This document shows positions 45,106 to 62,423 of a DNA stretch of 64,000 nucleotides, piece after piece. The position numbers and the translations under genes are program-made. The notes beneath the pieces were generated by a model, which had not been told where the DNA came from, did no database searches, and saw only the letters and a list, made by a program, of their open reading frames with translations. The stretch is taken from assembly GCF_016907385.1 (NCBI RefSeq), contig NZ_JAFBBU010000001.1, positions 1,922,001-1,986,000 on the forward strand. The letters run 5' to 3'. Each line of letters starts with the position of its first letter. The first letter of the stretch is position 1. Source of the stretch: Subtercola frigoramans. Lineage in GTDB: Bacteria; Actinomycetota; Actinomycetes; Actinomycetales; Microbacteriaceae.

Positions 45106-45108
45106 CCC

Positions 45109-47282: not shown

Positions 47283-47311
47283 CTTCACCCTCCCGGCCCC
47301 GGGCGTTCACC
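47283..47311 (+). promoter_or_regulatory. candidate PhoP (PHO) box upstream of pstC
   Basis: TTCACC occurs at 47284 and again, as GTTCACC, at 47305-47311. The two copies are exactly 22 bases apart, two turns of the 11-bp spacing seen between PhoP direct-repeat units (GTTCACC-like) in actinobacteria. The middle unit is poor. It lies about 66 bp before the pstC start in a 216-bp gap that otherwise shows only the ribosome site GGAGG near 47366. Phosphate-starvation control of the locus is inferred. Confidence 0.4.
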
Positions 47312-47376: not shown

Positions 47377-48543
47377 GTGTCTGAAAAGAAGTTCGACTCG
47401 TTGACAGACGTGCACAGCATGCTCACCGACAAGACCAGCGTGAAGACCCCCGTCGAGCGGGTGTTCGCCGACGAAGTCGGCCCCGACCCGTCAGCGCTGC
47501 GGCCACCGCTTCCCCCTGACTCAGACGACGCACCCACCCATGTGAACCCCGACCCGATCAACATGATCGGCGTTCACAAGCGGTCGCTGAAGTCACGCCC
47601 GTCACGCTCGGACTCGATCTTCAAAGGCGTCTCGTTCACCGCCGGCGCAACCACGGTCGGCATCATGCTCGCCGTCGGCCTCTTTCTCACCCTGCGCGCC
47701 AGCGACGCCCTGCAGGTGCAGGGCATCAACTTTCTGCTCGAACAACAGTGGTCGCCCGACACCCACCAGTTCGGCATCGCCGCCGTGATCTTCGGTACCT
47801 TCACCATCGCCATCATCGCCATGTGCGTCGGTGTGCCGCTGGCCGTCGGCACAGCACTGCTGCTCTCCGAGGTCGTGCGCGGCGGGCTGCGCTCCTTTCT
47901 CGTGTCGCTCGTCGACCTCATGGCCGCCGTTCCCAGCGTGGTCTTCGGCCTCTGGGGTCTCTTCTTTCTGCAATCGGCGGTCATCCCGGTATCGAAGTGG
48001 ATCTCGACCTACTTCGCCTGGATCCCCGTCTTCGCCGTGACCGACCCCTCCAGCGGCCAGACCCTCACCGAGGCGAGCGCTTTCACCTCCTCGGCCTTCA
48101 TCGCCGGAATCGTCGTCGGCCTGATGGTCGTACCCACGCAGACCTCCGTCATGCGCGAGGCCTTCTCGCAGGCACCCATCGGCGAGCGCGAAGCAGCCTT
48201 CGCCCTGGGCTCCACCCGCTGGGGCATGATCCGCACGGTCGTCATCCCCTTCGGGCGCGGCGGGATGATCGGGGGAGTCATGCTCGGCCTCGGCCGCGCC
48301 CTCGGCGAGACCATCGCGGTGTATCTGATCATCTCGCCGATCTTCTCGATCAACTGGCAAGTGCTGAAGACCGGCACCAACTCGGTCTCGGCCCTGATCG
48401 CGCTGCGCTACGGCGAAGCGACCCAGTTCGGGCTCTCCGCCCTCATGGCCGCAGGGTTGGTGCTCTTTCTCATCACCCTGGTCATCAATTTCACCGCATC
48501 GTCGATCGTGGCCCGTTCACGCTCCGGCGCTGAGACGAGCTAG
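47377..48543 (+). CDS. pstC: phosphate ABC transporter permease PstC
   Basis: 388 aa. The permease part (about 85-388) has six transmembrane helices, the PstC feature VDLMAAVPSVVFGLWGLFFL, and the coupling-helix sequence EAAFALGSTRWGMIRTVVIPFGRGG that contacts PstB. A cytoplasmic N-terminal extension of about 75 residues (SEKKFDSLTDVHSMLTDK ... PPLPPDSDDAPTHV) precedes the first helix and is absent in ordinary PstC. GTG start at 47377 with GGAGG 7 bases before. First gene of a locus that ends in pstB at 60985. Confidence 0.96.
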   Translation: MSEKKFDSLTDVHSMLTDKTSVKTPVERVFADEVGPDPSALRPPLPPDSDDAPTHVNPDPINMIGVHKRSLKSRPSRSDSIFKGVSFTAGATTVGIMLAVGLFLTLRASDALQVQGINFLLEQQWSPDTHQFGIAAVIFGTFTIAIIAMCVGVPLAVGTALLLSEVVRGGLRSFLVSLVDLMAAVPSVVFGLWGLFFLQSAVIPVSKWISTYFAWIPVFAVTDPSSGQTLTEASAFTSSAFIAGIVVGLMVVPTQTSVMREAFSQAPIGEREAAFALGSTRWGMIRTVVIPFGRGGMIGGVMLGLGRALGETIAVYLIISPIFSINWQVLKTGTNSVSALIALRYGEATQFGLSALMAAGLVLFLITLVINFTASSIVARSRSGAETS

Positions 48544-48551
48544 GCGCGCAC

Positions 48552-49937
48552 ATGACCACCATCACCACGTTCGAGAAGCCCGTTTCGGGCGACCCCGACG
48601 ACGACGGTTTCGGCGAGGGTACCCAGCACGACGAAGACCTCGATTCAGGGCCCCGCCTGACCTTCATACCTCCCCACGTGCACGAGGGAGCTCCCACCGA
48701 GCCCGCACCGCGCCGCCGCCTGCGCGAGGCGACCCTCGACGAACGTTTCAACATCATCGGCGCACTCGTCGCCGGCCCCACCCTGGCGACACTGCTGTTC
48801 GGCTGGTTCACCCCGCTCACCGGCCCCATCGGCTGGGTCGTCGTGGCCTTCATCTCCTTCATCGGCTTCTACATCCTGCTGGTCTCCCTCCGCTCCGACC
48901 GCGAAGAAGTCAAAGACCGTGTTCTTACCGTGCTGCTGATCAGCGCCGGTACCGTGCTGTTCAGCGCCCTCGTCTTCGTGGTCATCTTCACAGTGAGCCG
49001 CGGACTCGAAGCCCTGCCGCACCTGAACTTCTTCACCCAGACGATGCAGTTCGCCGGCCCGCTCGACGGTCTCGACGTGGGAGGTATCGCCCACGCGATC
49101 GTGGGCACGCTCATCCAGATCTCCATCGCCCTGCTGATCACGATTCCGCTCGGTATCACCACCGCCGTGTTCCTCAACGAGATCGGCGGCAAGTTCGCGC
49201 GATTCGTGCGAACTATCTCCGACGCGATGACAGCTCTGCCGTCGATCGTGGCCGGCCTCTTCGTGTACGCCGCCGTCATCCAGCTCTTCACCCACCAGCG
49301 CTCGGGGTTCGCTGCGGCAATCGCCATCGCGGTGATGATGCTGCCGATCATCATCCGCGCCTCCGATGTCGTGCTCCGACTCGTGCCAGGCAACTTGCGC
49401 GAGGCCGCATACGCTCTGGGCTCGACCCGATGGCGCACCGTCTGGGAGGTCGTGCTGCCGACGGCTCGTTCGGGCCTCGTCACCGCGGTCATCCTGGGCA
49501 CTGCACGCGGTATCGGCGAGACCTCGCCCGTGCTGCTCACCTCGGGCATCACGGCCGTGATGAACCTCAACCCCTTCGAGGGCCCGATGATCTCGCTGCC
49601 ATTGCAGGTGTTCGACTTCGTCAAGTCGCCCCAGCCCACCATGATCGCGCGAGGGTTCGGCACGGCGGCCGTGCTGATCTCGCTCGTTCTTCTGCTGTTC
49701 ATCGTTGCGCGCCTCATCGGTGGCAAGGGCCCAGGGCAGCTCTCCGACGGCCAGCGCCGCCGGGTCGCCCAGCAGTCAGCGGATGACCTGCAGCGCATCA
49801 CCGTCATGAAGTACGCCCTCGCCCAGAGTGTCGAGGCCACACAGACCGCAGCCCCTGCGCCCCCGAGCTCCGCACCTCCCACACAAGCACCCACGACCCA
49901 CGTGACCACGAACAACAGCGAGGAGACGTCTCAGTGA
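48552..49937 (+). CDS. pstA: phosphate ABC transporter permease PstA
   Basis: 461 aa, about 150 more than usual. The permease core (about 75-395) shows the helices and the coupling loop REAAYALGSTRWRTVWEVVLPTARSG, and ALPSIVAGLFVYAAVIQLF. An acidic N-terminal cytoplasmic tail of about 60 residues and a C-terminal tail of about 75 residues ending in a Pro/Thr/Ala-rich stretch (APAPPSSAPPTQAPTTHV) are extra. ATG start at 48552, 8 bp after pstC. Its stop overlaps the GTG of pstS. Confidence 0.95.
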   Translation: MTTITTFEKPVSGDPDDDGFGEGTQHDEDLDSGPRLTFIPPHVHEGAPTEPAPRRRLREATLDERFNIIGALVAGPTLATLLFGWFTPLTGPIGWVVVAFISFIGFYILLVSLRSDREEVKDRVLTVLLISAGTVLFSALVFVVIFTVSRGLEALPHLNFFTQTMQFAGPLDGLDVGGIAHAIVGTLIQISIALLITIPLGITTAVFLNEIGGKFARFVRTISDAMTALPSIVAGLFVYAAVIQLFTHQRSGFAAAIAIAVMMLPIIIRASDVVLRLVPGNLREAAYALGSTRWRTVWEVVLPTARSGLVTAVILGTARGIGETSPVLLTSGITAVMNLNPFEGPMISLPLQVFDFVKSPQPTMIARGFGTAAVLISLVLLLFIVARLIGGKGPGQLSDGQRRRVAQQSADDLQRITVMKYALAQSVEATQTAAPAPPSSAPPTQAPTTHVTTNNSEETSQ

Positions 49938-51457
49938 CGCCGCGCATCCGATTCCTTCGTTTCTTCACCGCGGCTTCGGCCTTCGCGGTTCTGCTCGTCA
50001 GCGCTGTTGGTGGTGTGACGACGCAGAGCGCCTCGGCCGACACCTACGTGCCCATCTCGGGCAGTGGTTCGACGTGGTCGTCGAACGCGCTCGACCAGTG
50101 GCGCAAGGACTTCGCCTCGAACTTCGGCGTCACGGTCAACTACTCGGCGTCGGGTTCGTCTGCTGGGCGAACAGACTTCATCAACGGCTCTGTCGACTTC
50201 GCGGTGAGTGAGATTCCGTTCCAGACCGCGCCGGTCGACGGTTCGGCTCCGGAGAACGCCACAGATTACGCCTACATGCCCATCGTGGCCGGTGGCACGT
50301 CGTTCATGTACAACCTCAACATCGGTGGCAAGCGCGTCACCGACCTGCAGCTCGACGGCGACACCATCACCAAGATGTTCACCGGCAAGATCACCAATTG
50401 GAACGACCCCGCCATCCAGGCGACGAACCCCAGCCTGGCGATGCCGAACAAGCCGATCGTGCCGGTCGTGCGCTCCGACGGCTCGGGGTCGACCGCGCAG
50501 TTCACCCTGTGGATGGCGAAGCAGCATTCCGATGTGTGGTGCCCCTTCGTCAACGAAGCACCGGGCGACAGCTGTGGGCTCACCTCGCAGTACCCCAACG
50601 CGAGCTTTGCGAAGTTCCAGAGCGGGTCGCTCGGTGTGGCCGGGTACGTGAGCCAGGGCTACGGCGAAGGCGCGATCACGTACGTCGAGTACTCGTATGC
50701 GCTCAACTCAAAGTTCCCGGTTGCGAAAGTGCTGAATACGGCAGGAAACTACGCCGAGCCGACGGCCTCCGCTGTCGCGATCGCGCTCGGCAAGGCGAAG
50801 ATCAACGCCGACCTCACACAGGACCTCAGCGAGGTGTACACCAACCCCGACACGGCGGCGTATCCGCTTTCGAGCTACTCGTACATGATCATCCCGACGG
50901 TGGCGAAGGGTATCTTCACCACAGACAAGGGAAAGACTCTCGCGGCCTTCGTGACGTATGTGCTCTGCAATGGGCAACAACAGGCGGCCGCCCTCGGCTA
51001 TTCGCCGCTGCCCGCAAACCTCGTCTCCGCCGCCTCCGAACAGGTGAAACGCATTCCGGGAGGCCCGGCTGCCGGAATCGACTGTTCCAAGGTCAAGGGC
51101 GGCTCTGCTGGCGTCACGGTCACACCAGACCCGACAACCAGTGCGGCCGCAACAACGGCCGGTGCTGGCGGTGCAGCCAGCACCGGCGCCTCAACAACCG
51201 ACGGCTCCACTGGTGCGGCGACCACGGATTCCGCTGCCGCCGCAGCAGCGTCGAACACCGCCGTCTACGACGCCAACGGTGCCATCGTCAGCGGTTCCTC
51301 AGGGGTCGGGGCTGCAGTTGCTGCGTCAAAACCCCTCGTGCTCGACGACAGCGCGTTCGGCTCCCAACAGATCGTGATGATCGTGGCCGGCATTCTGCTG
51401 GTGCTCGCGATCGTTCTGCCGCCGTTCCTTTCTCGTCGCCTGAAACGGAGCAAATAG
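49934..51457 (+). CDS. pstS: phosphate-binding protein PstS, anchored by a C-terminal helix
   Basis: 507 aa. Signal peptide 1 to about 35 (ends ...SASA-DTYVP) without a lipobox Cys. The PstS fold (about 37-380) has PISGSGSTWSSNALDQW, NYSASGSSAGRTDFINGSVDFAVSEIPF, FTGKITNWNDP, VVRSDGSGSTAQFTLW and YVEYSYAL; it should bind phosphate through the GSG-type loops. A Thr/Ala/Gly/Ser-rich linker (about 390-470) and a C-terminal transmembrane helix follow (IVMIVAGILLVLAIVLPPFLSRRLKRSK region). So it is tethered by a helix and not by lipid. GTG start at 49934 overlaps pstA. Confidence 0.95.
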   Translation: MTPRIRFLRFFTAASAFAVLLVSAVGGVTTQSASADTYVPISGSGSTWSSNALDQWRKDFASNFGVTVNYSASGSSAGRTDFINGSVDFAVSEIPFQTAPVDGSAPENATDYAYMPIVAGGTSFMYNLNIGGKRVTDLQLDGDTITKMFTGKITNWNDPAIQATNPSLAMPNKPIVPVVRSDGSGSTAQFTLWMAKQHSDVWCPFVNEAPGDSCGLTSQYPNASFAKFQSGSLGVAGYVSQGYGEGAITYVEYSYALNSKFPVAKVLNTAGNYAEPTASAVAIALGKAKINADLTQDLSEVYTNPDTAAYPLSSYSYMIIPTVAKGIFTTDKGKTLAAFVTYVLCNGQQQAAALGYSPLPANLVSAASEQVKRIPGGPAAGIDCSKVKGGSAGVTVTPDPTTSAAATTAGAGGAASTGASTTDGSTGAATTDSAAAAAASNTAVYDANGAIVSGSSGVGAAVAASKPLVLDDSAFGSQQIVMIVAGILLVLAIVLPPFLSRRLKRSK

Positions 51458-51662
51458 CCCAGCCGCACCACCCCGATCACACCCCTGAAGCGCGCTCGGT
51501 CTGGGGTGTCTCCGCTGCGCCATTCTGCCCCGAAGCGCCCGCCCCATTGTGAAATCTCCGAAGCAGTACTCGTTATCACGTCGTTCATCTGGGCGACACT
51601 CTCCGCCCCTACTTTTGTGCCGTTCCTCTTCGAAACCGCTGGTTTCCAGCTTGGAGTTTGCC
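51458..51662. other. 205-bp gap between pstS and the giant PBP-like gene
   Basis: Holds an inverted repeat ACACCCC (51479-51485) / GGGGTGT (51503-51509) shortly after the pstS stop, possibly a weak terminator, and the ribosome site at 51653-51656. No promoter is clear and no small gene is convincing. Confidence 0.4.
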
Positions 51663-54284
51663 TTGTCTTCAGCACCCCGTCACCGCCTGTCGCGGCGCCG
51701 AACCCTCGTTCACTCGGGGCTCTCGGGCATCATCGGCGGCCTCGCCGTCGGGGCGATCGTGACGCTGGGCGGGGTCGTGATTCCGGCGACATCGGCGCAG
51801 GCGGCTGTCTCGAGCGCTGTGACGGTGTCGGTCGCTGACCAGGACCCTGACAAGGCCAACGCGCCCCTCCCCGACCTCAAGGTGACCGTCTCGCAGACGA
51901 AGGACTTGCAGGCCCAGGGCATCAAGGTGAGCTGGACGGGCGGAAAACCCTCGACCCCACCCAGTTCGACGTCGCCTGGTGGCACGAGTGGCGGTGGAGA
52001 CTACTTGCAGATCATGCAGTGTTGGGGAAACGACCCTCTCGACGCCTCGCAGCCCGACAGGACAACGTGCCAGTACGGCAGCTTCATCACCACTGGCGCA
52101 AGCCGATTCTCGAACATCGGAACCGGTGATCCGGTCGCGGATCAAGACAAGTCGTATACGGTGCCGGCGACTGAAACCAGTACGGGCTTGACGTCGATAC
52201 CGTTCAAACCCTATCCGGGCGACGATGCCACCAAGACTGTAGCGCTGGTCGCAGACAGTAAGTTTGTGCCCAACGCCACTGACCCTGCAAACAACCAGTA
52301 CTTCACCAAGCTGACGACGAATGAAGTCAGCTGGGCAGGCTCAGGCCCCAACGGCGACGGATCTGTGAAATTCGAGATCCAGACAGCCACGCAAGCTGCT
52401 GGCTTGGGCTGTGGCACGCCTGTGACGACTGCCAATGTCGTCTCTGGAACCCCGTGCTGGCTTGTGATCCTCCCTCGGGGTGAAACCGATCCTGGATACT
52501 CGTACTCGGGCACGAAGCAATCGGGTCTCGATTACAACGTGTGGAAACACAAACTGGCTGTGAAGCTCGACTTCCAGCCGGTTGGGCTCCGGTGCACCCT
52601 CGGTGCTGCGATCAGGCAGCTTGCTGGCAGCCAGCTGATCGAAGGTGCCGTACGCTCCTGGCAGCCGCAGCTCTGCACCGCCCCCGGCGGAGCAACGTAT
52701 GCGCTCATCGGCCAGCCCGAATCCGACGCGGCAACGGCTGCCAACAGCACAGACCCTCAGCCACTCGCGCTGACCTCGAGCGCGCTCCAAACCGACGGAA
52801 CAGACTCACTGACGTACGCACCAGTCGCACTGACTGGCGCCACAATCGCCTTCGCTTTAGATAGGACCGTGAAGTCGACCTGCCCGGCTGTCTCTGCCGA
52901 TGATTTGAAAACGTACACGTCACAGAACCATCTGCCATTCACAGAACTGAAGCTGACACCACGGCTGGTTGCAAAGCTTCTGAGTTACTCCTACTGGGAA
53001 TCCCTGCCCAACTTCGCCGATAAGTCCGAGGTCGGCTACAAGAGCCCATCTGAACCGGGCCCGAATGCCAGAAACATCACCTGGGACAAGGAGTTCATTG
53101 AGATCAATGGCCCAGAGTGGGGTTGCCAAGCCATCGCCGATCCTGCAGTTGCAGACATGCTCGAGCCGCTCGGCCACTCCGACGCAGCATCGGCGATGTG
53201 GAAGTACGTCATGAGCGACAAAGACGCGGTTGACTTCCTGAACGGCGTGCCAGATCCCTGGGGCATGAAAGTCAATCCCTGGTCTTCCACCAATCCCGAC
53301 ATCAATCCGACGCACTCGGGGCTCGTCCTCCCCACAGATAGCTTTCCCAAGCCCAGCCCCATTGAGCGAGCGGCCACAGCAAACGACCCTGCAATCAACC
53401 TGGTGACGTGGCGCCCGTATACAAACAGCTTCGACGCGGGTGGAATCGCAGTTCTGCGAGGCGATGGGCAGGACTACGGGAGCTCTGACCCTGGTCCGCC
53501 TGTGAAGTACACCAAAGCTGCGCGAAACATTCCTGGATATCAGAAAGTCATGGGTATCACGAGCACCGCTTCCGCCTCGAAGTACCAGCTGTTCACCGCG
53601 GCTCTACGAAACCCTGCCGGCAAGTACGTCACAGCGACGACAGATTCGCTGGCCGCCGCCGCTGCCGCGATGACGCCAGACACGAAACAGCCCCAAGTAG
53701 TGGGTTTCGACCCCACCTCTGTATCTGCCAAAACCGCCGAGGCTGCATACCCGCTCACGATGCCCGTCTACGCAGCAGTCAACCCGGCGATGAAGGATCC
53801 TGCAGCCACCGATCCGACCTCGATCCGCAAGGACTATGCCGCGTTCATCCGCTACGCAGTGGGTGCCGGCCAGGCACCGGGCACGGCATTGGGCCAGCTG
53901 CCCGATGGTTACGCCCCGATCCCCGATGCGTGGGAGACGCAGGCACTGGCCGCGGCGACGACAATCGGTGGGGCACTTCCCACCACGGCGACGCCGACTC
54001 CCAGCCCATCCGCTTCGTCTGCCGCACAGGCCACAACGAAACCCCTGCAGAGCTCGTCGGCCGGCACCTCCTCGTCGCAGGTCGCGTCCGTCGCTGCCCA
54101 GCCGGTCGCGACTCCCACAGACCCAGCCCCCACAGGCGCTGCGGCCGCCCCACTTCTCGGCGACCCGACCCCTGCAGACCCCACGTCGGGAGCACTCCCC
54201 GCAGCCCTGCCAGCGAGCATCATCGCCGGCCTCGGGTTCGCGTTGGCTGTTCCCTTCGTCTCCCGCATCAGGAGAAGACGATGA
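51663..54284 (+). CDS. giant extracellular PstS-like (type 2 PBP) surface protein
   Basis: 873 aa from TTG 51663 (MSSAPRHRLSRRRTLVHSG), with GGAG at 51653-51656; the upstream open frame is not family-like. A twin-arginine-like RRR followed by a hydrophobic helix (GIIGGLAVGAIVTLGGVVIP) and ATSAQA cleavage site gives secretion. The long ectodomain has PstS-like pieces: ITWDKEFIEINGPEWGC, VLRGDGQDYGSSDPGP, and YPLTMPVYAAVNPAM ... FIRYAVGAGQAPG. Several Cys occur (CWGNDPL, TCQYG, GCGTP, PCW), suggesting disulfides. A Pro/Ser/Thr/Ala linker and a C-terminal helix with RIRRRR anchor it. Ligand unknown; phosphate or a phosphorylated compound is inferred from context. Confidence 0.8.
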   Translation: MSSAPRHRLSRRRTLVHSGLSGIIGGLAVGAIVTLGGVVIPATSAQAAVSSAVTVSVADQDPDKANAPLPDLKVTVSQTKDLQAQGIKVSWTGGKPSTPPSSTSPGGTSGGGDYLQIMQCWGNDPLDASQPDRTTCQYGSFITTGASRFSNIGTGDPVADQDKSYTVPATETSTGLTSIPFKPYPGDDATKTVALVADSKFVPNATDPANNQYFTKLTTNEVSWAGSGPNGDGSVKFEIQTATQAAGLGCGTPVTTANVVSGTPCWLVILPRGETDPGYSYSGTKQSGLDYNVWKHKLAVKLDFQPVGLRCTLGAAIRQLAGSQLIEGAVRSWQPQLCTAPGGATYALIGQPESDAATAANSTDPQPLALTSSALQTDGTDSLTYAPVALTGATIAFALDRTVKSTCPAVSADDLKTYTSQNHLPFTELKLTPRLVAKLLSYSYWESLPNFADKSEVGYKSPSEPGPNARNITWDKEFIEINGPEWGCQAIADPAVADMLEPLGHSDAASAMWKYVMSDKDAVDFLNGVPDPWGMKVNPWSSTNPDINPTHSGLVLPTDSFPKPSPIERAATANDPAINLVTWRPYTNSFDAGGIAVLRGDGQDYGSSDPGPPVKYTKAARNIPGYQKVMGITSTASASKYQLFTAALRNPAGKYVTATTDSLAAAAAAMTPDTKQPQVVGFDPTSVSAKTAEAAYPLTMPVYAAVNPAMKDPAATDPTSIRKDYAAFIRYAVGAGQAPGTALGQLPDGYAPIPDAWETQALAAATTIGGALPTTATPTPSPSASSAAQATTKPLQSSSAGTSSSQVASVAAQPVATPTDPAPTGAAAAPLLGDPTPADPTSGALPAALPASIIAGLGFALAVPFVSRIRRRR

Positions 54285-54398
54285 TGCCCCACATTCTTGG
54301 CACCCGTGAACGACGGCAACGATTGACGCCGTTCGCACCAAGTCGATGCGACTGCGCTTGCCGTTGCACGGTAAACCCTCCCGAAAGGAATCCCCACA

Positions 54399-55514
54399 GT
54401 GAAGATCAATAAGGTTGTTGCAGTTGCAGCAGCTCTGGGCGTCGCCGTTGCCGGCATCGCTTTCTCCGCTCCCGCCGCTTACGCGGAGCCTGTCTCCAAC
54501 AGCTACGTGCTGGTCGGTTCCGACACCCTTCAGGATGCAGTCAACGCTCTGGCCAACGGTACCTCGATCAGTGGCGCGAGTGTTCGCGTCACCGCTTCGG
54601 GTTCCTCGATCGGTTCGTACGACGCTTTCGGTTCAACTTCCATCCAGGTCAAGCCTGCTGGCCCGACCTTCGGCCGCCCCTCGGGTTCGGGCGACGGAGT
54701 CAAGGCTCTGAGCCGCTCCATCGATGGCGCCAACTGGGTCAAGAACGGTCTCACCAAGTCCATCACGGGCCAGGTCGACCTTGCTCGTTCATCAAGCGGC
54801 CCCTCGGCCAACCCGACCGGCCCGCTTCTCTACACCCCGTTCTCGCGTGACGCCGTTTCGTATGCATACAAGTTCGGCGCCGGCGTCACCTCTGCTGCGG
54901 GCATCGACACCCTGAGCTCTGCTGACCTGACCTCGCTCTACAACGGCACGCTCACCTCCGTCGGTGGCGTCACCGTTGTTCCCCGTCTTCCCCAGGATGG
55001 TTCGGGAACCCGCAAGTTCTGGGTCGGCGCACTCGGCGTCGGCAACTCACCTGCTGGTGTTCCGGATGCTGCAACCACCACCCTGCAGGAGAACGACGCT
55101 ACCCAGCTGACCCCCGCCGCGAACACGATCCAGATCGTTCCCTTCTCGGCTGCCAGCTGGATCGCGCAGTCCAACGGCGCCACGGGCACCAACACCATCG
55201 CCGGCTCGGGCGTTTCGCTCGGCGCCATCGGCGGCGTTGTCGCCTTCACCGGTTCGGGCACCGCGCTCGTTCCTGACGCTCCGTTCTACGCCAACACCAC
55301 GTTCGGCCGCGACACCTACATCGTCGTCGAGTTCGCTCGCGTCGACCCGACCAGCGCCACGTACGACGCTGGCCTGGCTTCGCTCGTCAACACCTCGGCT
55401 GCAAAGAGCCTCACCAACTTCGGCACGAGCCCGGCAACTGCCGGTGCCGTAAAGAAGAAGTTCGGCTTCCTCGCACCGTCGACCACCAACACCCAGCGTG
55501 CCAACCTCTCCTAG
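54399..55514 (+). CDS. secreted PstS-like substrate-binding protein
   Basis: 371 aa from GTG 54399 behind AAAGGA (54384-54389). Signal peptide 1-29 (VVAVAAALGVAVAGIAFSAPAAYA). The mature protein has PBP type 2 features: YVLVGSDTLQDAVNALANG at the start, RPSGSGDGVKAL, VDLARSSSGPS, YTPFSRDAVSYAYKFG, LSSADLTSLYNGTL and VPRLPQDGSGTRKFW. There is no transmembrane helix or sorting signal at the C-terminus, so it is either free or held by partners. Codon use is strongly biased toward preferred codons, hinting at high expression. Phosphate as ligand is inferred from operon position. Confidence 0.85.
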   Translation: MKINKVVAVAAALGVAVAGIAFSAPAAYAEPVSNSYVLVGSDTLQDAVNALANGTSISGASVRVTASGSSIGSYDAFGSTSIQVKPAGPTFGRPSGSGDGVKALSRSIDGANWVKNGLTKSITGQVDLARSSSGPSANPTGPLLYTPFSRDAVSYAYKFGAGVTSAAGIDTLSSADLTSLYNGTLTSVGGVTVVPRLPQDGSGTRKFWVGALGVGNSPAGVPDAATTTLQENDATQLTPAANTIQIVPFSAASWIAQSNGATGTNTIAGSGVSLGAIGGVVAFTGSGTALVPDAPFYANTTFGRDTYIVVEFARVDPTSATYDAGLASLVNTSAAKSLTNFGTSPATAGAVKKKFGFLAPSTTNTQRANLS

Positions 55515-55551
55515 TTTCCCTTCCTCTCCACACACCTCTGAAAGGCTAGAA

Positions 55552-56637
55552 ATGATCAAGAAGAATGCCATTCGTTTGGCATCAGTCGGCATCATCGCCG
55601 GCGCGCTCATCGGCGCGACGTCGCTGACTGCCCAGGCAGCACCCGGCGTGCCGCCCGCACCCGTCGGCTCGACCGGTGCGTACTACCTCGTCGACTCCGG
55701 CACCGGCGAACCCGTGCTCGCAGGCACCGTGCTCAACTACAACACCGACGTTTCTGGTTCACCGGTCGTCGGCGCTGCGAACGACTTCGCGAACTACTTC
55801 ACCGGACCGGCAGACGCCACCGGCGTCAAGGTGTTCGTCGCCGCTGTCGGTACCGAGCGCAACACGAACACGTACTCCTCGTGGGCTCCGAGCGCGTTCG
55901 CTGACCCTGTCGCCAAGACCGTCCTGCTCCCCGCAGGCGAGCTCGACGCCATGATCAACGGCCTTCCCGGCCAGGCGTCCGTCAAGGCTGCTGGTGGTAA
56001 CTACAGCCTCGGCGTTGCGTTCACCAAGGACAACGGCGTGAACATCGCGTCGGGTGCTGTGTACTACACGACCATCAGCATCGAAGCCGGCACCGGCCTC
56101 TGGACCCCGTACGTCACGGGCGTCGTCACCCCGCCGCCGCCCGCCAGCGGTACCTTCGACCAGAACTTGTCGGCTACCACCATTGCCGCACAGGATGGCA
56201 CCCTGAACCTGGTCGCCCCGGCCAGCTCCACCACCACACTTGGTGCAGCGACCCTGGTCAACCAGCTCTCGACCTCGACCGGTGACCTCGGTAAGTTCAC
56301 CGTTCAGGACACGCGCGTCGTCACTGCCAAGGGTTGGGACCTGACCACTTCGGTCACGAACTTCACCAACACGGCTGACAGCACCAAGACGATCGACAAA
56401 AAGCAGCTCGGTGTCGCGGCCAAGGCCGCAGCCGGCACCACGCTTCCTGCCGGTGTCACCCTCGCAGCAGCCCAGGTCGCCGGCTCCGCCGTCAACCCGG
56501 CGCCGTTCGCAAGCGCTGCCGCAGGCACCGCGATCGCCGCAACCGACCTCGACGCTGGACTGACGCTTGTCGCTCCCGCCAACACGCCGGCTGGTACCTA
56601 CACCGCGAAGCTCACCGTCACGCTGGCTTCGAAGTAA
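55552..56637 (+). CDS. WxL-like cell-surface protein
   Basis: 361 aa from ATG 55552 behind AAAGG (55541-55545). Signal peptide 1 to about 29 (GIIAGALIGATSLTAQA). Residues about 42-190 are a beta-rich domain of unknown type; after a PPPPASG hinge, residues about 205-361 resemble a WxL domain. The first motif is intact (Trp262 in GWDLTTSVTNF); the second, normally YxxxLTWxL near the C-terminus, reads TYTAKLTVTL, with Val for Trp. WxL domains bind peptidoglycan and interact with DUF916 proteins, and a DUF916 gene follows. A terminator lies just downstream. Confidence 0.75.
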   Translation: MIKKNAIRLASVGIIAGALIGATSLTAQAAPGVPPAPVGSTGAYYLVDSGTGEPVLAGTVLNYNTDVSGSPVVGAANDFANYFTGPADATGVKVFVAAVGTERNTNTYSSWAPSAFADPVAKTVLLPAGELDAMINGLPGQASVKAAGGNYSLGVAFTKDNGVNIASGAVYYTTISIEAGTGLWTPYVTGVVTPPPPASGTFDQNLSATTIAAQDGTLNLVAPASSTTTLGAATLVNQLSTSTGDLGKFTVQDTRVVTAKGWDLTTSVTNFTNTADSTKTIDKKQLGVAAKAAAGTTLPAGVTLAAAQVAGSAVNPAPFASAAAGTAIAATDLDAGLTLVAPANTPAGTYTAKLTVTLASK

Positions 56638-56663
56638 CATCCGCTCCACAGCACTGAACCAGG

Positions 56664-56693
56664 GGAGGGGTCGCGCAAGCGGCCCCTCCTTTT
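56664..56693 (+). terminator. intrinsic terminator after the WxL-like gene
   Basis: Stem GGAGGGGTCGC with GCGGCCCCTCC (11 pairs, one U-G), GCAA tetraloop, then TTTT. It splits the pst locus: the genes from pstC to the WxL-like protein end here, and the DUF916 gene starts about 90 bases later, so read-through or a second promoter must serve the genes through pstB. Confidence 0.88.
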
Positions 56694-56784
56694 GGGGTGA
56701 CAGCAGAACCGTTCGGCGCCCCTTGTTCACCTCCGGTTCAGCTTCCCGACCGACTCCCGCCAACTGAGTTTGGATAAATGTACT

Positions 56785-57927
56785 GTGCCCGATATCACAG
56801 CCCTGCCCTCACTGCTCAAACGCCTTCTCGCATTCGCCATTGCTGCCCTTTTCCTCGCCGGACTGATGGTCTCGTTCCAATCGGCAAGCAGCGCGCGGGC
56901 CGACGACACCGCCGGAATCTCCGGTGCACCCTCTGACGGCAAGTCGACAGACGATCGGTCGCGATTCAGCTATCAACTCGCGCCTGGCCAGCACATCGAC
57001 GACTTCTACCAGGTCAAGAACACCGGTACCGTTCCCCAGACCATGAAGGTCTTCGCGACTGACGCCTACAACACCGACGACGGTTCGTATGGCCTGCTCG
57101 ACACCGATGCGACCCCCACCGACGCAGGCAACTGGGTGTCGTTCGCGAACGGGGCAAAGCAACTCTCCATCCCGCTCGACCCGGGAGCCACCCAGATCGT
57201 GCCCTTCACCCTGGATGTGCCGGCCGACGCCTCGCCCGGCGACCACGCAGCAGGAATCGTCATCTCTGTACTCACGCCCGACGGCCAGGTTCTCGTTGAT
57301 CGCCGCGTAGCCACACGCCTCTACGCCCGCGTCGAGGGCGCCCTCCAGGCAGCCCTCACCATCAGCAGCATCGCCGCGACCTACGACCAGCAGTTCAATC
57401 CGTTTGATGGTTCAGCGACCGTCACCTACACCGTGAAGAACAACGGAAACGTGGCGCTCGGCGCGAACACCGTCGTCGGAGTCAACACGTACCTGGGCAT
57501 TGCTGCGGCGGGCCAGGTGCGTACGGAACTCAAGGAGATGCTCCCCGGCAGCACAAGAACCGTCTCGGTCACCGTCCCCGGTGTCGCCCAGCTCGGCTAC
57601 CTCAACCCGTACATCAGCCTCGCCCCGACGATCGACCCCGAAGCGCTGAACCCGGGCCCGCTGACCACGGTGAACCGCGACACCGTACTCATCGCCATGC
57701 CGTGGTGGCTCGTGATCATCCTCATCATCGTGCTGATCGTTTGGCTGGTCCTGCGCATTCGCCGCAAGCGCGACGAGAAGAACGCCATCGCCTGGGCCGC
57801 CTACACCGAGGCAGAAGCTCGCCGCCGCGCGACAGAAGAACTCGTCGCCGCCGGCGCATCATCCACCGCCGCAACATCCGGGGCCGCATCCATAAACGAG
57901 GCGCCAGCGCCCGACTCCTCCCGGTAA
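56785..57927 (+). CDS. DUF916 WxL-interacting-type membrane protein
   Basis: About 380 aa. I favour GTG 56785 (MPDITALPSLLKRLLAFAI); TTG 56770 is in frame and no ribosome site is clear, so the mRNA may be leaderless (ATAAAT lies about 10 bases upstream). Signal peptide to about residue 38. The peptidoglycan-binding DUF916 domain shows SYQLAPGQHIDDFYQVKNTG, FATDAYNTDDGSYGLL, GNWVSF and PADASPGDHAAGIVIS. A second Ig-like domain follows (LQAALTISSIAATYDQQF ... YTVKNNGNVALG). A C-terminal transmembrane helix (WWLVIILIIVLIVWLVLRI) and a charged cytoplasmic tail end the protein. In Firmicutes such proteins pair with WxL proteins. Confidence 0.85.
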   Translation: MPDITALPSLLKRLLAFAIAALFLAGLMVSFQSASSARADDTAGISGAPSDGKSTDDRSRFSYQLAPGQHIDDFYQVKNTGTVPQTMKVFATDAYNTDDGSYGLLDTDATPTDAGNWVSFANGAKQLSIPLDPGATQIVPFTLDVPADASPGDHAAGIVISVLTPDGQVLVDRRVATRLYARVEGALQAALTISSIAATYDQQFNPFDGSATVTYTVKNNGNVALGANTVVGVNTYLGIAAAGQVRTELKEMLPGSTRTVSVTVPGVAQLGYLNPYISLAPTIDPEALNPGPLTTVNRDTVLIAMPWWLVIILIIVLIVWLVLRIRRKRDEKNAIAWAAYTEAEARRRATEELVAAGASSTAATSGAASINEAPAPDSSR

Positions 57928-57931
57928 CACG

Positions 57932-58702
57932 GTGAAATCGAGAAGGCGAGCGATAGCAGCCCGGGTGGCGGTGACCCTTGCGATGGCTACCGTCGCCACC
58001 GCGGTATTCGGTACGAGCGCGGCGATGGCCGATGACAGCTCCGGGGGAGTGGGCATCACCGTGACCGTGGCGGGTTCACCCACGAGTTCGGCCGTGACAT
58101 CCACAAACCCCGCGGGCACCAAAGCCTCACCGTCGAAATCGAACACGGGTTCCGGTTCGTCAACCGTCGTCACACCGACCACTCCTTCGACGAACAAGCC
58201 CGTCGCGGCCCCGGGTGAATTCGATCTGGGCGGCCTCATCTTTCTCAGCGGCGTGACCTCCGACTACGCCTGGAGCATCAATCCACTCGCCGGCGAATCG
58301 CACGCGCAGATCACGGTGCACAACGTCTCCACAGAGACCATCGACTCGACCGCCGATTTCGTGATCGTCGGCCCGTTCGGCAACGAGATCAGCCGAGTGG
58401 ATGCTGTACCCATCGCCGCCCTGAAACCCGACGAGTCTCGCACCGTCGACGCGACCTTCACTGGCCTCGGGCAGTGGACGTTCCACACCACCCACGTCAC
58501 CTTCGTTCCGCCGCCTGTCGTGCAGGGCACTGAGCTGACGCCCGTCACCCGCGATGGATTCATGTTCGTGCTGCCGTGGTTCCTTCTCGTTCTGCTGATT
58601 CTCGCCATCGGCACGTATTCGGTGGTGCGGATCATCCGTGAGGCCGAATTCGAAGGCGCAGTCGTCGCCAGTTCGCCGAGCCTCGGGGAGGGCGTCGCAT
58701 GA
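57932..58702 (+). CDS. membrane-anchored surface protein with Ig-like domain
   Basis: 256 aa from GTG 57932, 4 bp after the DUF916 gene. Signal peptide about 1-33, then a Ser/Thr/Gly linker (about 35-95), then a single Ig-like beta-sandwich (about 97-205: GEFDLGGLIFLSGVTSDYAW ... ITVHNVSTETIDSTADFVIVGPFG ... SRTVDATFTGLGQW) that resembles the second domain of WxL-interacting proteins. A C-terminal helix (FMFVLPWFLLVLLILAIGTY) anchors it. No firm family assignment. Its GTC-GCATGA end overlaps the ATG of the pseudo-sortase. Confidence 0.75.
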   Translation: MKSRRRAIAARVAVTLAMATVATAVFGTSAAMADDSSGGVGITVTVAGSPTSSAVTSTNPAGTKASPSKSNTGSGSSTVVTPTTPSTNKPVAAPGEFDLGGLIFLSGVTSDYAWSINPLAGESHAQITVHNVSTETIDSTADFVIVGPFGNEISRVDAVPIAALKPDESRTVDATFTGLGQWTFHTTHVTFVPPPVVQGTELTPVTRDGFMFVLPWFLLVLLILAIGTYSVVRIIREAEFEGAVVASSPSLGEGVA

Positions 58703-59700
58703 CCGCCACCATCGAAGCGCCTCTCGGCGGCACACCGGCCGGCCCGACTCCACCCCGCCCACCGAGACCTCCGAAACCGCCGAAGGTCCCCAAAGCGGCA
58801 CGGCCACCGCGACCGCCGCGCCGCCCGCCGGCCTCAGCGATGCCCGTCATTCCTCTCGGGCCGGCTCAGACGATCATCCGGGGCGTGCTTCTGCTCGTCG
58901 CCGTCATGCTGTTCGCCTTCGCGGCGAACCTCATGATCCTCAGCCACGTGCAGCACGCGGTGGCCCAGCAGCAGCAGTCGAACGAGCTGCGCGTCGAGCT
59001 CGCCGCAGGCACCACACCCGTGAGCGAGGCAACCTTCGACGACAAGCTCGTGGCTGACGGCGCACCGCTCGGCATCATCGACATCCCGTCGATCGGCGTG
59101 CACGAGGTCATCTCCGAAGGCACGTCGGCAGACATTCTGAAGAACGGCCCGGGTCACCGGCGGGATTCTGTTCTGCCCGGCCAGGCCGGAATCAGCACCG
59201 TCATGGGCCGCGCTGCTGCGTACGGCGGGCCGTTCTCGCGCATCCAGGAGCTCGCCCCAGGCGACCGCTTCACCGTGCTCACCGGCCAGGGCACGCAGAC
59301 CTTCTCGGTGATCGGTGTGCGCTATGCCGGCGACCCGGTTCCCACCTTCCAGGGCGGCACCAGCCGGCTGACAATGATCACCGCCCGAGGTCCCGCGTAC
59401 ATTCCGAACGCGATCGCCTACGTCGATTCCGCACTCGCCTCCGAAGTGCAGCCGGCTGGCAAACGCCAGACGACCTACCTCGCCCTGCCGGCCACCCAGC
59501 AGGCCATGGCGACCGACACCTCGACCGTGTGGGCGCTCGTCTTCGCCCTGCAGTTCCTGCTGGCGGTCGAGATCGCCGCCGTCTGGGCGTACCGCAAGAT
59601 CGGCCCGCAGAAGACCTGGGTCGTGTTCCTCCCGCTCTCCGTGCTCGCCGCGCTCTATGTGGCGAACCAGATGACCCTGCTGTTGCCCAACCTGCTGTGA
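58699..59700 (+). CDS. sortase-family membrane protein lacking catalytic His and Cys
   Basis: 333 aa. Cytoplasmic N-terminus with a Pro/Lys/Arg repeat (residues about 17-46, PPRPPRPPKPPK type), one transmembrane helix (about 58-82), the sortase beta-barrel (about 120-260), and two or three C-terminal helices. The sortase fold is clear: IIDIPSIGVHEVI, KNGPGH, PGQAG, AYGGPFSRIQELAPGDRF. The catalytic His of the usual GHR is Arg171 (VMGRAAAYGG), and the catalytic Cys of TLxTC is Ala229 (TMITARG). No LPXTG signal is encoded nearby. So it is probably a binding or scaffold protein. ATG start overlaps the previous stop. Confidence 0.88.
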   Translation: MTATIEAPLGGTPAGPTPPRPPRPPKPPKVPKAARPPRPPRRPPASAMPVIPLGPAQTIIRGVLLLVAVMLFAFAANLMILSHVQHAVAQQQQSNELRVELAAGTTPVSEATFDDKLVADGAPLGIIDIPSIGVHEVISEGTSADILKNGPGHRRDSVLPGQAGISTVMGRAAAYGGPFSRIQELAPGDRFTVLTGQGTQTFSVIGVRYAGDPVPTFQGGTSRLTMITARGPAYIPNAIAYVDSALASEVQPAGKRQTTYLALPATQQAMATDTSTVWALVFALQFLLAVEIAAVWAYRKIGPQKTWVVFLPLSVLAALYVANQMTLLLPNLL

Positions 59701-59785
59701 GCCGGTCACAGCACTGGCAGACCCTGATGGATGCTGCACCCCACCCCTTCGCAAGAACCCGTTCGTGCCAGAGAAATGATTCGCC

Positions 59786-60985
59786 ATGACTGACGCCACC
59801 GCCACGCCCCCCGAAGTGCCCGCAGAACCGCCTGTTGAACTGCCCGTTGAAGGTCCCTCCACGGCATCCATCGTGCCGGCATCCGCCCCGGTGGCTACCG
59901 ACGCTGACAAGACGGAAGTGCTCCCCGCCCAGAAGCGCCGCGACAAACGCGTCTTCTCCTCGACGGTCAAGGCGCCCAAACCGCCGAAGGCCCCCCGAGA
60001 GCCGAAGCCGCCCAAACCGCCCAAGGGTGCGGCTCCCTACGTGCGGGTCGGTACCCCGGGAGCGCGCGACTGGACCCCGCCTGCCGGAAGCCCGGCCGCG
60101 TGGGTGCCCCCGGCATCCGGCGGTCTCACGCCACTGCCCGGCACGGCCCCCGGCTACGCCGCCGGCACAGTCAGGGGCCAGGCCACCACAGCCGTTCTCG
60201 AGCGCCCACCCCTCGCCGCCCTCGAAGCCAAGAACATCTCAGCGTGGTTCGGCGACCACCAGGTGCTCGACCGCGTCTCGCTGACGATGCCCGCCGGTGT
60301 GATCACCTCGCTCATCGGCCCATCGGGCTGCGGCAAGTCGACCTTCCTGCGCATCCTGAACCGCATGCACGAGCTCGTGCCCTCCGCGAGCCTGGCCGGC
60401 GAGGTGCTCATCGACCACGAAGACATCTACAGCGCCGACCGCAAGCTCGTCGACGCCCGCAAGAGCATCGGCATGGTCTTCCAGAAGCCGAACCCGTTCC
60501 CGGCGATGTCGATCTACGACAACGTCATCGCCGGCCTGCGACTTACCGGCACCCAGGTCGGCCGCGCCGAACGCGACTTCCTCGTCGAGAGCTGCCTCAC
60601 CAAGGCCGGCCTCTGGAAGGAGGTGCGCGACCGCCTCCGCGCACCGGGCGGCGGCCTCTCGGGTGGCCAGCAGCAACGCCTCTGCATCGCCCGCTCGCTC
60701 GCCGTCACCCCTCGGGTTCTCCTCATGGACGAGCCGTGTTCCGCCCTCGACCCGACCTCGACTCGCGTCATCGAAGAGACCATGCTCGAGCTCGTGAACG
60801 ACGTCACCATCGTCATCGTCACGCACAACATGCAGCAGGCCCAGCGTGTCTCCACCCAGTGCGCGTTCTTCCTCGCATCGCAGGGCAAGCCCGGCGGCAT
60901 CGTCGAATACGGCGACACCGAGGCGATGTTCTCCAAGCCCATCGACTCACGCACCTACGACTACGTGAACGGTGTCTTCGGCTAA
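59786..60985 (+). CDS. pstB: phosphate ABC transporter ATPase PstB with long N-terminal extension
   Basis: 399 aa; ordinary PstB is about 255. The ATPase part (from about residue 145) has Walker A GPSGCGKST, the Q-loop QKPNPFP typical of PstB, signature LSGGQQQR, Walker B VLLMDEPCSALDP and switch VTHNMQQA. The extra about 140 residues are Pro/Glu-rich and then Pro/Lys-rich (about 65-85, KAPKPPKAPREPKPPKPPK), like the tail of the pseudo-sortase. It should power PstC/PstA. It is separated from pstCA by about 8 kb of surface-protein genes. phoU is not present. ATG start at 59786. Confidence 0.95.
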   Translation: MTDATATPPEVPAEPPVELPVEGPSTASIVPASAPVATDADKTEVLPAQKRRDKRVFSSTVKAPKPPKAPREPKPPKPPKGAAPYVRVGTPGARDWTPPAGSPAAWVPPASGGLTPLPGTAPGYAAGTVRGQATTAVLERPPLAALEAKNISAWFGDHQVLDRVSLTMPAGVITSLIGPSGCGKSTFLRILNRMHELVPSASLAGEVLIDHEDIYSADRKLVDARKSIGMVFQKPNPFPAMSIYDNVIAGLRLTGTQVGRAERDFLVESCLTKAGLWKEVRDRLRAPGGGLSGGQQQRLCIARSLAVTPRVLLMDEPCSALDPTSTRVIEETMLELVNDVTIVIVTHNMQQAQRVSTQCAFFLASQGKPGGIVEYGDTEAMFSKPIDSRTYDYVNGVFG

Positions 60986-61005: not shown

Positions 61006-61023
61006 CATAGACTGTGGTCTATG
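61006..61023. promoter_or_regulatory. ArsR-type operator overlapping the arsR-arsC start
   Basis: CATAGA-CTGTGG-TCTATG, a perfect 6-6-6 inverted repeat. Its last three bases are the ATG start codon of the regulator. The same half-sites and spacing recur at 61962-61979. TAGACT at 61008-61013 fits a -10 element (TANNNT) 7 bases before the start, so the mRNA may be leaderless and the repressor would cover its own promoter. Confidence 0.75.
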
Positions 61024-61935
61024 GATGACCTGCGAGCCCCCAGCGACCTGAAACTCCTCGCCAACCCCACGCGGGCCCGCATCATGCAGCTCATCCTCAA
61101 CAGCCCCGACGGTCGGCGGCGGGTCGGCGAGCTGGCCACCGAGCTCCAGTTGCGCCAGCCCACGGTCAGTCACCACGTCAAGGCGCTGATGGACCAGGAT
61201 CTGCTCGAGCGTCACCCCGACGGTCGTCGCGTCTGGTACTCGCTCGCCGAGCACCAACGCGACCGGGTCGATGCCTTGTTGCCGGGGGAGCCAGATCGTG
61301 CCATCGAGCCCGAGGTGCTCGAACGGATCTCGGCCGACCTCGCCCTCCGATTCTCTGGCACGTTCTCGCGCGAGACGGTCAATCGCTACGTCGCCGAGAG
61401 TTTCACCTTGCTGTCCACGACGTCGCAGCTCACCAGCCACGTGGCATCAATCACCTCGACATTCACAGTCGACCGACTCTCCGCCCTCGCCACCCAGACC
61501 ACGTCGAAATACGACCCGGGGGAGTCACGCCGGGTTCCGGAGGTGCTGTTCGTCTGCGTGCAGAACGCCGGTCGCTCACAACTTGCGGCGGGCATCCTGA
61601 GGCATCTCGCAGGAGACCGCGTTCACGTGCGCACCGCGGGATCGGCCCCGGCGAGCGCAATGCGTTCGGTGATCGTCACTGCGCTCGACGAGATCGGCGT
61701 TGCCGTCGGGGGTGAATTCCCGAAGCCGCTCACGGACGAAGTAGTACGCGCGGCAGATTTCGTCATCACGATGGGCTGCGGAGACGCATGCCCGGTCTAC
61801 CCCGGTCGCACGTACCTCGACTGGAGCATCGATGACCCCGACGGCCAGCCCCTGGCTACGGTGCGTGAAATCCGCGGCGACATCGAGGCGCGCGTGCGAG
61901 CGCTGCTGGCCAGCCTCGCGGTGAACGATTCATGA
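61021..61935 (+). CDS. ArsR repressor fused to arsenate reductase
   Basis: 304 aa with three parts. Residues 1 to about 90: ArsR winged helix (DLKLLANPTRARIMQLIL ... LRQPTVSHHVKALMDQDLLERHPDGRRVWYSL). Residues about 98-150: the three-helix module found in front of some ArsC proteins (LERISADLALRFSGTFSRETVNRYVAESF). Residues about 178-304: low-molecular-weight-phosphatase-like ArsC with active-site loop FVCVQNAGRSQLAAG and the second-Cys region TMGCGDACPVYPG. It should sense arsenite and reduce arsenate. ATG 61021 lies inside the operator. The usual ArsR Cys-V-C metal site is not visible in the helix region, so the sensing residues are unclear. Confidence 0.92.
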   Translation: MDDLRAPSDLKLLANPTRARIMQLILNSPDGRRRVGELATELQLRQPTVSHHVKALMDQDLLERHPDGRRVWYSLAEHQRDRVDALLPGEPDRAIEPEVLERISADLALRFSGTFSRETVNRYVAESFTLLSTTSQLTSHVASITSTFTVDRLSALATQTTSKYDPGESRRVPEVLFVCVQNAGRSQLAAGILRHLAGDRVHVRTAGSAPASAMRSVIVTALDEIGVAVGGEFPKPLTDEVVRAADFVITMGCGDACPVYPGRTYLDWSIDDPDGQPLATVREIRGDIEARVRALLASLAVNDS

Positions 61936-61961
61936 ACAGGTGATCATCCGGCAGCCAAACG

Positions 61962-61979
61962 CATAGATAACCATCTATG
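61962..61979. promoter_or_regulatory. second ArsR-type operator, upstream of arsC
   Basis: CATAGA-TAACCA-TCTATG, extended by G and C on the two sides to GCATAGATAACCATCTATGC (61961-61980). Half-sites and spacing are identical to the operator at 61006. It lies 29 bp before the arsC start, so the ArsR-ArsC fusion probably represses both promoters. Confidence 0.8.
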
Positions 61980-62007
61980 CTTTGAGAAACGACCGTGAGG
62001 AAGCCCT

Positions 62008-62418
62008 ATGTCAGAAAAGCCCGTCGTACTCTTCGTCTGCATCCACAACGCAGGCCGCTCCCAGATGGCCGCCGGCTACATGCGTGCCCTGTCTGGCGGC
62101 GCCGTCGAAGTGCGCTCTGGCGGCTCGGAGCCCGGTGACCAGATCAACCCGATCGCCGTGCAGGCCATGGCCGAAGAAGGCATCGACATCTCCGAGGCCG
62201 TCCCGCAGTTGATGACGACCGAGCAGGTGCAGGATTCCGACGTCGTCATCACAATGGGCTGCGGCGACGTCTGCCCGATCTTCCCCGGCAAACGTTACGA
62301 GGACTGGGAGCTGGTCGACCCCCGCGGCAAGAGCATCGACGACGTTCGCCCCATCCGCGACGACATCAAGGCCCGCATCACCGCGCTCCTCGCCGAGCTC
62401 CTGCCCGCGACGGTCTGA
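62008..62418 (+). CDS. arsC: arsenate reductase, LMW-phosphatase type
   Basis: 136 aa. The whole protein is one ArsC domain: P-loop FVCIHNAGRSQMAAGYM with the nucleophilic Cys and Arg, EVRSGGSEPGDQINPIAVQAM, and VVITMGCGDVCPIFPGKRYEDWEL with the second-Cys region. This matches the actinobacterial mycothiol-dependent arsenate reductases. ATG 62008 follows GAGGAAG. It has its own operator palindrome upstream and is followed 5 bp later by a third ArsC gene. Confidence 0.94.
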   Translation: MSEKPVVLFVCIHNAGRSQMAAGYMRALSGGAVEVRSGGSEPGDQINPIAVQAMAEEGIDISEAVPQLMTTEQVQDSDVVITMGCGDVCPIFPGKRYEDWELVDPRGKSIDDVRPIRDDIKARITALLAELLPATV

Positions 62419-62423
62419 CTCTT

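Follow-up and report, generated by a model that had tools for sequence, protein, structure and literature searches.

The window analysed here is a stretch of 64,000 nucleotides from Subtercola frigoramans (G000:C1:1922001-1986000, within a single contig of 3.68 Mb), and the subject of this study is a cluster of phosphate importer (pst) and surface-protein genes at 47377-60985. An earlier note, made from the letters alone, had proposed that these genes form a phosphate-capture assembly, with importer genes wrapped around a surface-protein module on one strand with short gaps. All ten open reading frames were located as described, on the + strand and in the order pstC-pstA-pstS-giant-sPstS-wxl-DUF916-Ig-srt-pstB. 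The features are as follows, with the basis of each call in brackets.

47305..47311, + strand: PHO-box-like half-site GTTCACC upstream of pstC (direct reading)
47377..48543, + strand: pstC, permease (TIGR02138, 236.2 bits against a cut-off of 196.45)
48552..49937, + strand: pstA, permease of a divergent second class (TIGR00974, 220.1 bits against 193.45)
49934..51457, + strand: pstS, secreted phosphate-binding protein with a C-terminal transmembrane (TM) anchor and without a lipobox (TIGR00975, 230.3 bits against 205)
51549..54284, + strand: giant, with predicted signal peptide, beta-rich N-terminal domain, PstS fold, linker and C-terminal TM (model)
51572..51589, + strand: PHO-box-like direct repeat GTTATCACGTCGTTCATC, second half perfect, upstream of giant (direct reading)
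54399..55514, + strand: sPstS, predicted PstS-fold secreted protein without a C-terminal TM (model)
55552..56637, + strand: WxL-like secreted protein with a single W-x-L motif (Trp invariant, 22/22)
56662..56697, + strand: hairpin 3' of wxl, likely terminator (direct reading and fold energy in relatives)
56725..56742, + strand: PHO-box-like direct repeat GTTCACCTCCGGTTCAGC upstream of the DUF916 gene (exact match to GTTCANCNNNNGTTCANC)
56770..57927, + strand: DUF916/WxL-interacting protein with a C-terminal TM (PF06030, 28.9 bits against 27.3)
57932..58702, + strand: Ig-like membrane-anchored protein (likeness to the C-terminal half of the DUF916 protein)
58699..59700, + strand: pseudo-sortase (srt), His to Arg171 and Cys to Ala229 (PF04203, 45.9 bits against 26.6)
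59786..60985, + strand: pstB, ATPase with a Pro/Lys-rich N-terminal extension of 145 residues (TIGR00972, 323.9 bits against 343.2)

The start of wxl was corrected to the ATG at 55552, and that of giant is probably the TTG at 51651, at which place the relative L039 has an ATG. The giant, sPstS, WxL-like and Ig-like proteins have no Pfam match at E <= 0.01.

The conservation of this gene order next to pst across Actinobacteria had been set beforehand as a check on the proposal, and it was found in many genera. Among 60 genomes of the family, the sortase homologue gave 12 strong matches (E 6e-53 or better), the next being at E 1.4e-12 and weaker. It is adjoined by pstB in all 12 genomes, the upstream genes pstC-pstA-pstS-giant were seen in ten loci of these genomes, and the short contigs of G038 carry srt-pstB and pstC-A-S. 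The sPstS family is present in exactly the same 12 genomes. Further afield, a giant-profile scan of named genomes returned 361 relatives, of which the 80 with the best scores make up the named loci; because they were chosen by score and found via giant, they favour near relatives. Genera among these best 80 include Subtercola, Herbiconiux, Cryobacterium, Leifsonia, Microbacterium, Agromyces and Frigoribacterium, along with Propionicimonas, Propionicicella, Tessaracoccus and a Cellulomonas. Gene order was determined in the 58 named loci whose sequence extends 4.5 kb or more upstream and 8.5 kb or more downstream of giant, and 54 of the 58 have the full ten-gene order. The exceptions are L068 and L115 (no detected DUF916), L089 (neither DUF916 nor Ig) and L093 (no separately called sPstS). 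The genes pstC, pstA, pstS, giant, pseudo-sortase and pstB occur in order in 58/58 loci, or in 57/58 with score thresholds; in L093 masked bases break the frames, so that pstB is under threshold and sPstS is not called, its sPstS profile match (483 bits) sharing one open frame with giant. Judged from these sequences, the gene set is spread over several classes or families of Actinomycetota. The cluster is also carried by L132, a contig labelled Stenotrophomonas maltophilia, which is probably a contaminated assembly.

PstC, PstA and PstS of the cluster all exceed their NCBIfam equivalog cut-offs. PstB scores below that of TIGR00972, which is still its best family with a match from residue 146, and Walker and LSGGQ motifs are visible. 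Its extension (59786-60220) and the pseudo-sortase's N-terminal tail look alike by eye (KPPKPPK-like). A canonical pstS-C-A-B is present at C1:1.12 Mb of the same genome, and its PstS has the lipobox LSAC. The cluster is therefore a second pst system; that it is the genome's only one was ruled out. By score, PstA falls into two main classes. A high class, the canonical one (259-290 bits), was found in 57/60 family genomes, and a low class (200-222 bits) in all 12 cluster genomes and also in G010 and G013 (206 bits). A PstA of ~235 bits is a further copy in G018 and the sole copy over the cut-off in G030, and G044 has none over the cut-off. The pst copies of G010, G013, G018 and G030 were considered as wrapped clusters and rejected, as no giant or pseudo-sortase was found in the 19-20 kb examined and the weak giant-profile matches near them fall on PstS-like genes.

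The cluster PstS has a C-terminal TM in 86/86 relatives' loci, with a basic tail in 84, and a lipobox-like pattern in just 3/86. Its RSDGSG-type loop carries Arg in 85/85 pattern-matching sequences (5 were unmatched); for the acid loop, 22/90 PstS had no pattern match and were left out of the count. The cluster thus resembles the known PstSCAB importer in its PstC, PstA and PstS over curated cut-offs, its PstB ATPase and its PHO-box-like control, but differs in its PstS, which carries a C-terminal TM and no lipobox, in the added PstS-fold proteins and pseudo-sortase, and in being a divergent second copy beside the canonical one. On balance, the evidence leans slightly towards the cluster encoding a second Pst importer that is under Pho control and has an extracytoplasmic assembly of its own, and the remaining genes are considered below with this reading in mind.

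Predicted models bear out the labels of giant binding-protein-like and secreted PstS-like that two of the proteins had been given. The model of sPstS is a complete PstS fold, and that of giant contains one at residues 306-768 (numbering of window:51684-54284) followed by a low-confidence linker; the top solved folds for the giant model include PstS-1. There are accordingly three PstS-type proteins, pstS by family cut-off and giant and sPstS by model. At the level of sequence, giant has a partial PstS match (TIGR00975, 33.1 bits against the cut-off of 205, E 2.9e-8), sPstS has no TIGR00975 match and no relative among Protein Data Bank sequences at E <= 1 (phmmer), and comparison of the giant and sPstS profiles gave no match. 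The N-terminal domain of giant (51819-52583, ~residues 46-300) is beta-rich with conserved Cys and the motifs QCWG and CWLV..PRG, and it has no Pfam match. The proposal that the three binding proteins gather phosphate and pass it on is upheld as far as the folds are concerned; the hand-off is putative, and among the three only PstS retains the usual phosphate-contact motifs.

It is on this point that the favoured reading meets most resistance. The loops were compared using what we take to be the phosphate-contact positions of E. coli PstS. The acid loop of sPstS reads D(I/L)ARSSSG where PstS has DFAxSEIP, and Pro198 replaces the Arg of the RSDGSG loop in 33/33, in a profile match of only 46% probability, while the SGT loop is retained. 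In giant, GRSD stands in place of the SGT loop, as placed by secondary-structure order and not by residue-level structural alignment. G037, G046 and G052 also have extra sPstS-like copies that are not part of the cluster. From their sequences, sPstS and giant may bind something other than phosphate, or nothing, and with the anion-contact loops altered, phosphate as their ligand is the weakest point of the reading. In G046, the genome of locus L046, two tandem sPstS-like open frames were seen beyond the cluster (G046:C7:38304-41943).

The altered loops also bear on a different explanation, that what the system imports or captures is not orthophosphate but another phosphorylated ligand (ester, pyrophosphate or polyphosphate) or a different oxyanion, sPstS and giant being the primary receptors. 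This would fit the non-PstS residue set of sPstS that is invariant in 33/33 at each position (GSDT40-43, R93, R130, S132, D151, S202-G203-T204, E231), the highly conserved loops of giant's own (G497-D500; of 34 sequences, G497 in 34, R498 in 31, S499 in 31 and D500 in 33) and the canonical orthophosphate pst already in the genome. We consider it improbable, however, as the cluster PstS, PstC and PstA exceed cut-offs set for phosphate systems and the cluster PstS keeps the Arg of its RSDGSG-type loop wherever the pattern was matched. Several PstS folds per organism are also found in Mycobacterium tuberculosis, where PstS-1 and PstS-3 are lipoproteins; those are separate canonical binding proteins, whereas here the loops are altered, giant has a beta-rich domain and sPstS is unanchored.

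The product of srt has a sortase domain, and its best NCBIfam match is the class E sortase NF033747 (E 2.8e-17; 63.3 bits, below the cut-off of 160). By alignment to solved sortases the catalytic His position is Arg171, with Arg in 33/33 aligned relatives, and the Cys position, which was set with the L-T-x-T-C motif in an intact sortase as guide, is Ala in 30, Ser in 2 and Thr in 1. Residues H153, R155, D156, T195-G198, R208 and R223 are invariant in the same 33 sequences. In a wider set (n=17) His and Cys are lost in 17/17 and the Arg is invariant; a later match, G289, has Lys. This supports the earlier note, which had already taken the sortase homologue for a pseudo-sortase. One N-terminal and two C-terminal hydrophobic segments were read in the protein, and the C-terminal TM is present in 81/81 relatives.

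A search of 296 Actinomycetota genomes gave ten matches above 180 bits, nine of which lack both His and Cys and lie at pst clusters; the tenth (G329) has both catalytic residues and no pst. Eight regions with weaker matches of 115-138 bits were covered (G193, G269, G338, G225, G213, G172, G128 and G182), and in these the sortase has His and Cys intact and no pstC, pstA or pstS match within 20 kb; the only pst matches there, to the pstB profile at 109-198 bits, were read as other ABC ATPases. The profile used (family A8) included the window sequence and five from giant-found loci (G241, G150, G247, G075 and G060), and the profile-independent dead-site matches are G273, G289 and G323, with 43, 42 and 62% identity to the nearest profile member. 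Active-site loss and pst linkage coincide in every case examined, since 9/9 dead-site sequences are at pst and 9/9 intact ones are not. No viral relatives of the pseudo-sortase were confirmed.

Compared with class E sortases, the protein shares the GPGH..PGQ.G and YGGPF stretches in addition to the family match, but it lacks the catalytic His and Cys, has a C-terminal TM region and was at pst in all of the dead-site cases examined. It is extremely improbable that it still transpeptidates through other residues, or together with a sortase in trans, and so fixes the surface proteins covalently. The sortase fold and N-terminal hydrophobic segment are retained, but the His and Cys are absent from both sets of relatives while the nine intact sortases elsewhere keep them. 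A pst-adjacent pseudo-sortase in G060, of the same phylum but outside the window's class (L148:10658-11557), resembles a half-way state to class E, with His replaced by Arg, Cys by Ser and a later Arg in an ASERLVV stretch; it should help to date when the active site was lost.

In the WxL-like protein, the Trp of the first W-x-L motif is present in 22/22 sequences, and the C-terminal end is LT(L/V)T(L/V)-like and without Trp, so that one of the two motifs of a WxL protein was found (n=22). Pfam WxL (PF13731) matched 7/22 members at E <= 0.1 (best E 5.3e-7), the window's protein not among them. PF06030 (DUF916/WxLIP_PGBD) matched 29/30 members of the DUF916 family (A10), and a C-terminal TM was seen by hydropathy in 66/74 loci. 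DUF3324 (HBD) was absent from the 13 Pfam families found for the 30 DUF916 members at E <= 0.01. The Ig-like and DUF916 proteins are related through the C-terminal half of the latter, and in the window's genome the DUF916 profile matches the Ig-like protein at 69.5 bits. The set is similar to the WxL/WxLIP (DUF916-DUF3324) systems of Firmicutes in its WxLIP_PGBD domain, C-terminal TM and adjacent gene for a secreted W-x-L protein, and differs in having no DUF3324 match, one W-x-L motif and a setting in a pst cluster of Actinomycetota. WxL proteins have been reported almost entirely from Lactobacillales and Bacillales, and DUF916 binds peptidoglycan and WxL (PMC10599100, excerpt).

The distribution of the DUF916 family does not follow that of the cluster. 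The family was detected in 16/60 family genomes. Nine of these lack the cluster and the other seven are cluster genomes; in the remaining 5/12 cluster genomes no member was found. The middle of the cluster is built as sPstS-WxL-DUF916-Ig in six family genomes including the window's; G042 has another TM protein together with sPstS, a WxL-like protein and DUF916. In L046-L049 the middle is replaced by a single open frame of ~760-870 residues with an sPstS domain and then Ig-like repeats. WxL/DUF916 as the defining part of the system was rejected on these grounds. As they are used elsewhere and missing from some clusters, WxL/DUF916 are, by sequence comparison, an accessory, recruited attachment, and the constant parts on the same basis are giant, the sPstS domain and the pseudo-sortase. 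The overall idea of the earlier note is supported in part: the conserved neighbourhood was found, but WxL/DUF916 does not define it.

These findings also suit the alternative that the surface proteins form a cell-surface structure of phosphate-starved cells, for adhesion or for wall remodelling upon teichoic acid cutback, which shares Pho control with pst and has no role in import. In Firmicutes, WxL/WxLIP reportedly form wall-bound platforms for host-binding domains (PMC10599100, excerpt), and both the DUF916 genes without a pst cluster in 9 of 60 family genomes and the Ig-like repeats of the other clade are in keeping with this. We regard it as unlikely, because it is the PstS-fold proteins and the pseudo-sortase that remain associated with pst, and because their genes lie amid the pst genes with pstB last, a layout for which plain co-regulation has no need.

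A PHO box consists of two 11-nt direct repeats, with GTTCACC in Streptomyces coelicolor (PMC4415409, excerpt). The repeat at 56725-56742 matches GTTCANCNNNNGTTCANC exactly and has the sequence of a Pho-regulon box; the 3.68 Mb genome has three exact matches, one being this copy upstream of the DUF916 gene. The other two are at G000:C1:6740 and G000:C1:2006493. With <= 1 mismatch allowed, 41 copies of the pattern and 3 of its mirror were counted, and the canonical pstS is preceded by a copy with one mismatch. In the relatives' upstream regions, two-unit matches (12/14 or better, either strand) were found before DUF916 in 27/75, giant in 32/90 and pstC in 12/80, compared with pstA 0/81, sPstS 2/87, pstB 3/79, Ig 3/76, srt 4/81, wxl 4/82 and pstS 6/83, and 1-2% in shuffles. 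By strand (+/-) these were 11/1 for pstC, 30/2 for giant and 26/1 for DUF916. Half-sites (GTTCA[CT]C) on the + versus - strand were 56 vs 9 of 80 for pstC, 54 vs 3 of 90 for giant and 23 vs 7 of 75 for DUF916; the values elsewhere were 7 vs 6 of 81 (pstA), 19 vs 29 of 83 (pstS), 4 vs 6 of 76 (Ig) and 4 vs 2 of 79 (pstB). When intergenic gaps of 20-600 bases only were counted, half-sites (GTTCA[CTG]C) were 38 vs 3 of 72 between pstS and giant and 32 vs 6 of 71 between wxl and DUF916, with giant-sPstS (12 vs 2 of 87), sPstS-wxl (2 vs 0 of 28) and srt-pstB (2 vs 2 of 77) as controls. The PHO-box-like sites before pstC, giant and DUF916 make co-regulation of the surface genes with pst, which the earlier note had set as its second check, a candidate on the evidence of DNA sites, not of expression.

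The 73 nt after the wxl stop fold below -25 kcal/mol in 81/81 relatives' loci; such folds follow the other nine genes in 3-68% of loci (pstB 68%, pstS 63%). A single operon was considered and thought unlikely: given the hairpin after wxl in all of these loci and the two internal PHO-box-like sites, the sequence suggests that one transcript for all ten genes is unlikely. Several observations weaken the regulatory case. The two-unit repeat is limited to the above fractions of DUF916 and pstC upstream regions, half-sites show a + strand bias upstream of sPstS (15 vs 4 of 87), wxl (14 vs 6 of 82) and srt (14 vs 3 of 81) as well, and the counts are not independent as the loci are related. A consensus terminator scan gave 8 terminators against 7.2 in shuffles, with the wxl hairpin not among them, and a promoter scan found none.

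We also asked whether the extra PstS folds and the pseudo-sortase might sense phosphate in the wall or outside the cell and feed this into PstCAB/PhoR signalling. E. coli PstSCAB belongs to Pho sensing (PMC4415409, excerpt), and the pseudo-sortase is a membrane protein whose gene adjoins pstB. This is nevertheless very unlikely, as the ten genes include no kinase, PhoU or regulator; a PASTA kinase relative was matched, irrespective of position, in 64/91 relatives' loci.

Under the favoured reading of a second Pst importer with its own extracytoplasmic assembly, PhoP would switch on three units under phosphate limitation, pstCAS, giant-sPstS-wxl and DUF916-Ig-sortase-pstB. The pseudo-sortase, no longer cutting, would hold or order the cluster proteins at the membrane; the C-terminal TM-plus-basic tails of the held proteins may be likened to sortase substrates minus the sorting motif. 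The WxL/WxLIP pair, or Ig repeats in the other clade, would keep sPstS in the wall, and sPstS and giant would enrich phosphate, or some phosphorylated ligand, for delivery to PstS-PstCAB. A more specific form, in which a non-catalytic sortase scaffold (or anion receptor) and two re-tooled PstS folds make a wall-to-membrane relay for an Actinomycetota-wide second Pst, is put forward tentatively, as the less probable of the two. The anion-receptor option is included because the lost His has given way to Arg and there are other invariant Arg residues.

On the downstream side of the cluster, at 61021-63944, are an ArsR-type regulator whose N-domain gave a phosphatase-like match, two LMW-phosphatase genes that are arsenate-reductase-like and a MIP channel (- strand), which from sequence are probably an arsenic gene set beside the phosphate importer. 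These were rejected as part of the system, as the first three were found in just 3/91 relatives' loci. A PHO-box-like repeat with one mismatch lies near them at 61920-61937 on the - strand. Upstream of pstC, at 44221-47160, are an SLT-domain protein and the PASTA Ser/Thr kinase mentioned above.

A literature search, mostly of open-access papers and without bioRxiv, found no description of a combination of pst with WxL or a pseudo-sortase. Searches of the same literature for a PHO box in Microbacteri-, for pseudosortase and for a sortase as pseudoenzyme gave no matching paper. The paper that matched PstS, sortase, phosphate starvation and Actinobacteria concerns, in the portion available, Cutibacterium phosphatases and an ordinary PstSCAB-PhoU. 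Neither actinobacteri nor phosphate appears in the main text of a WxL survey (PMC9772566). As far as searched, what is new is an undescribed, conserved surface assembly joined to a Pst importer, Pst itself being known.

To our knowledge, the passage of phosphate through the thick Gram-positive wall to a membrane importer has been little studied. The conserved set of Pst, PstS-fold proteins and dead sortase makes this question directly testable by single-gene deletions, and the cluster would provide a non-catalytic sortase with a defined context.

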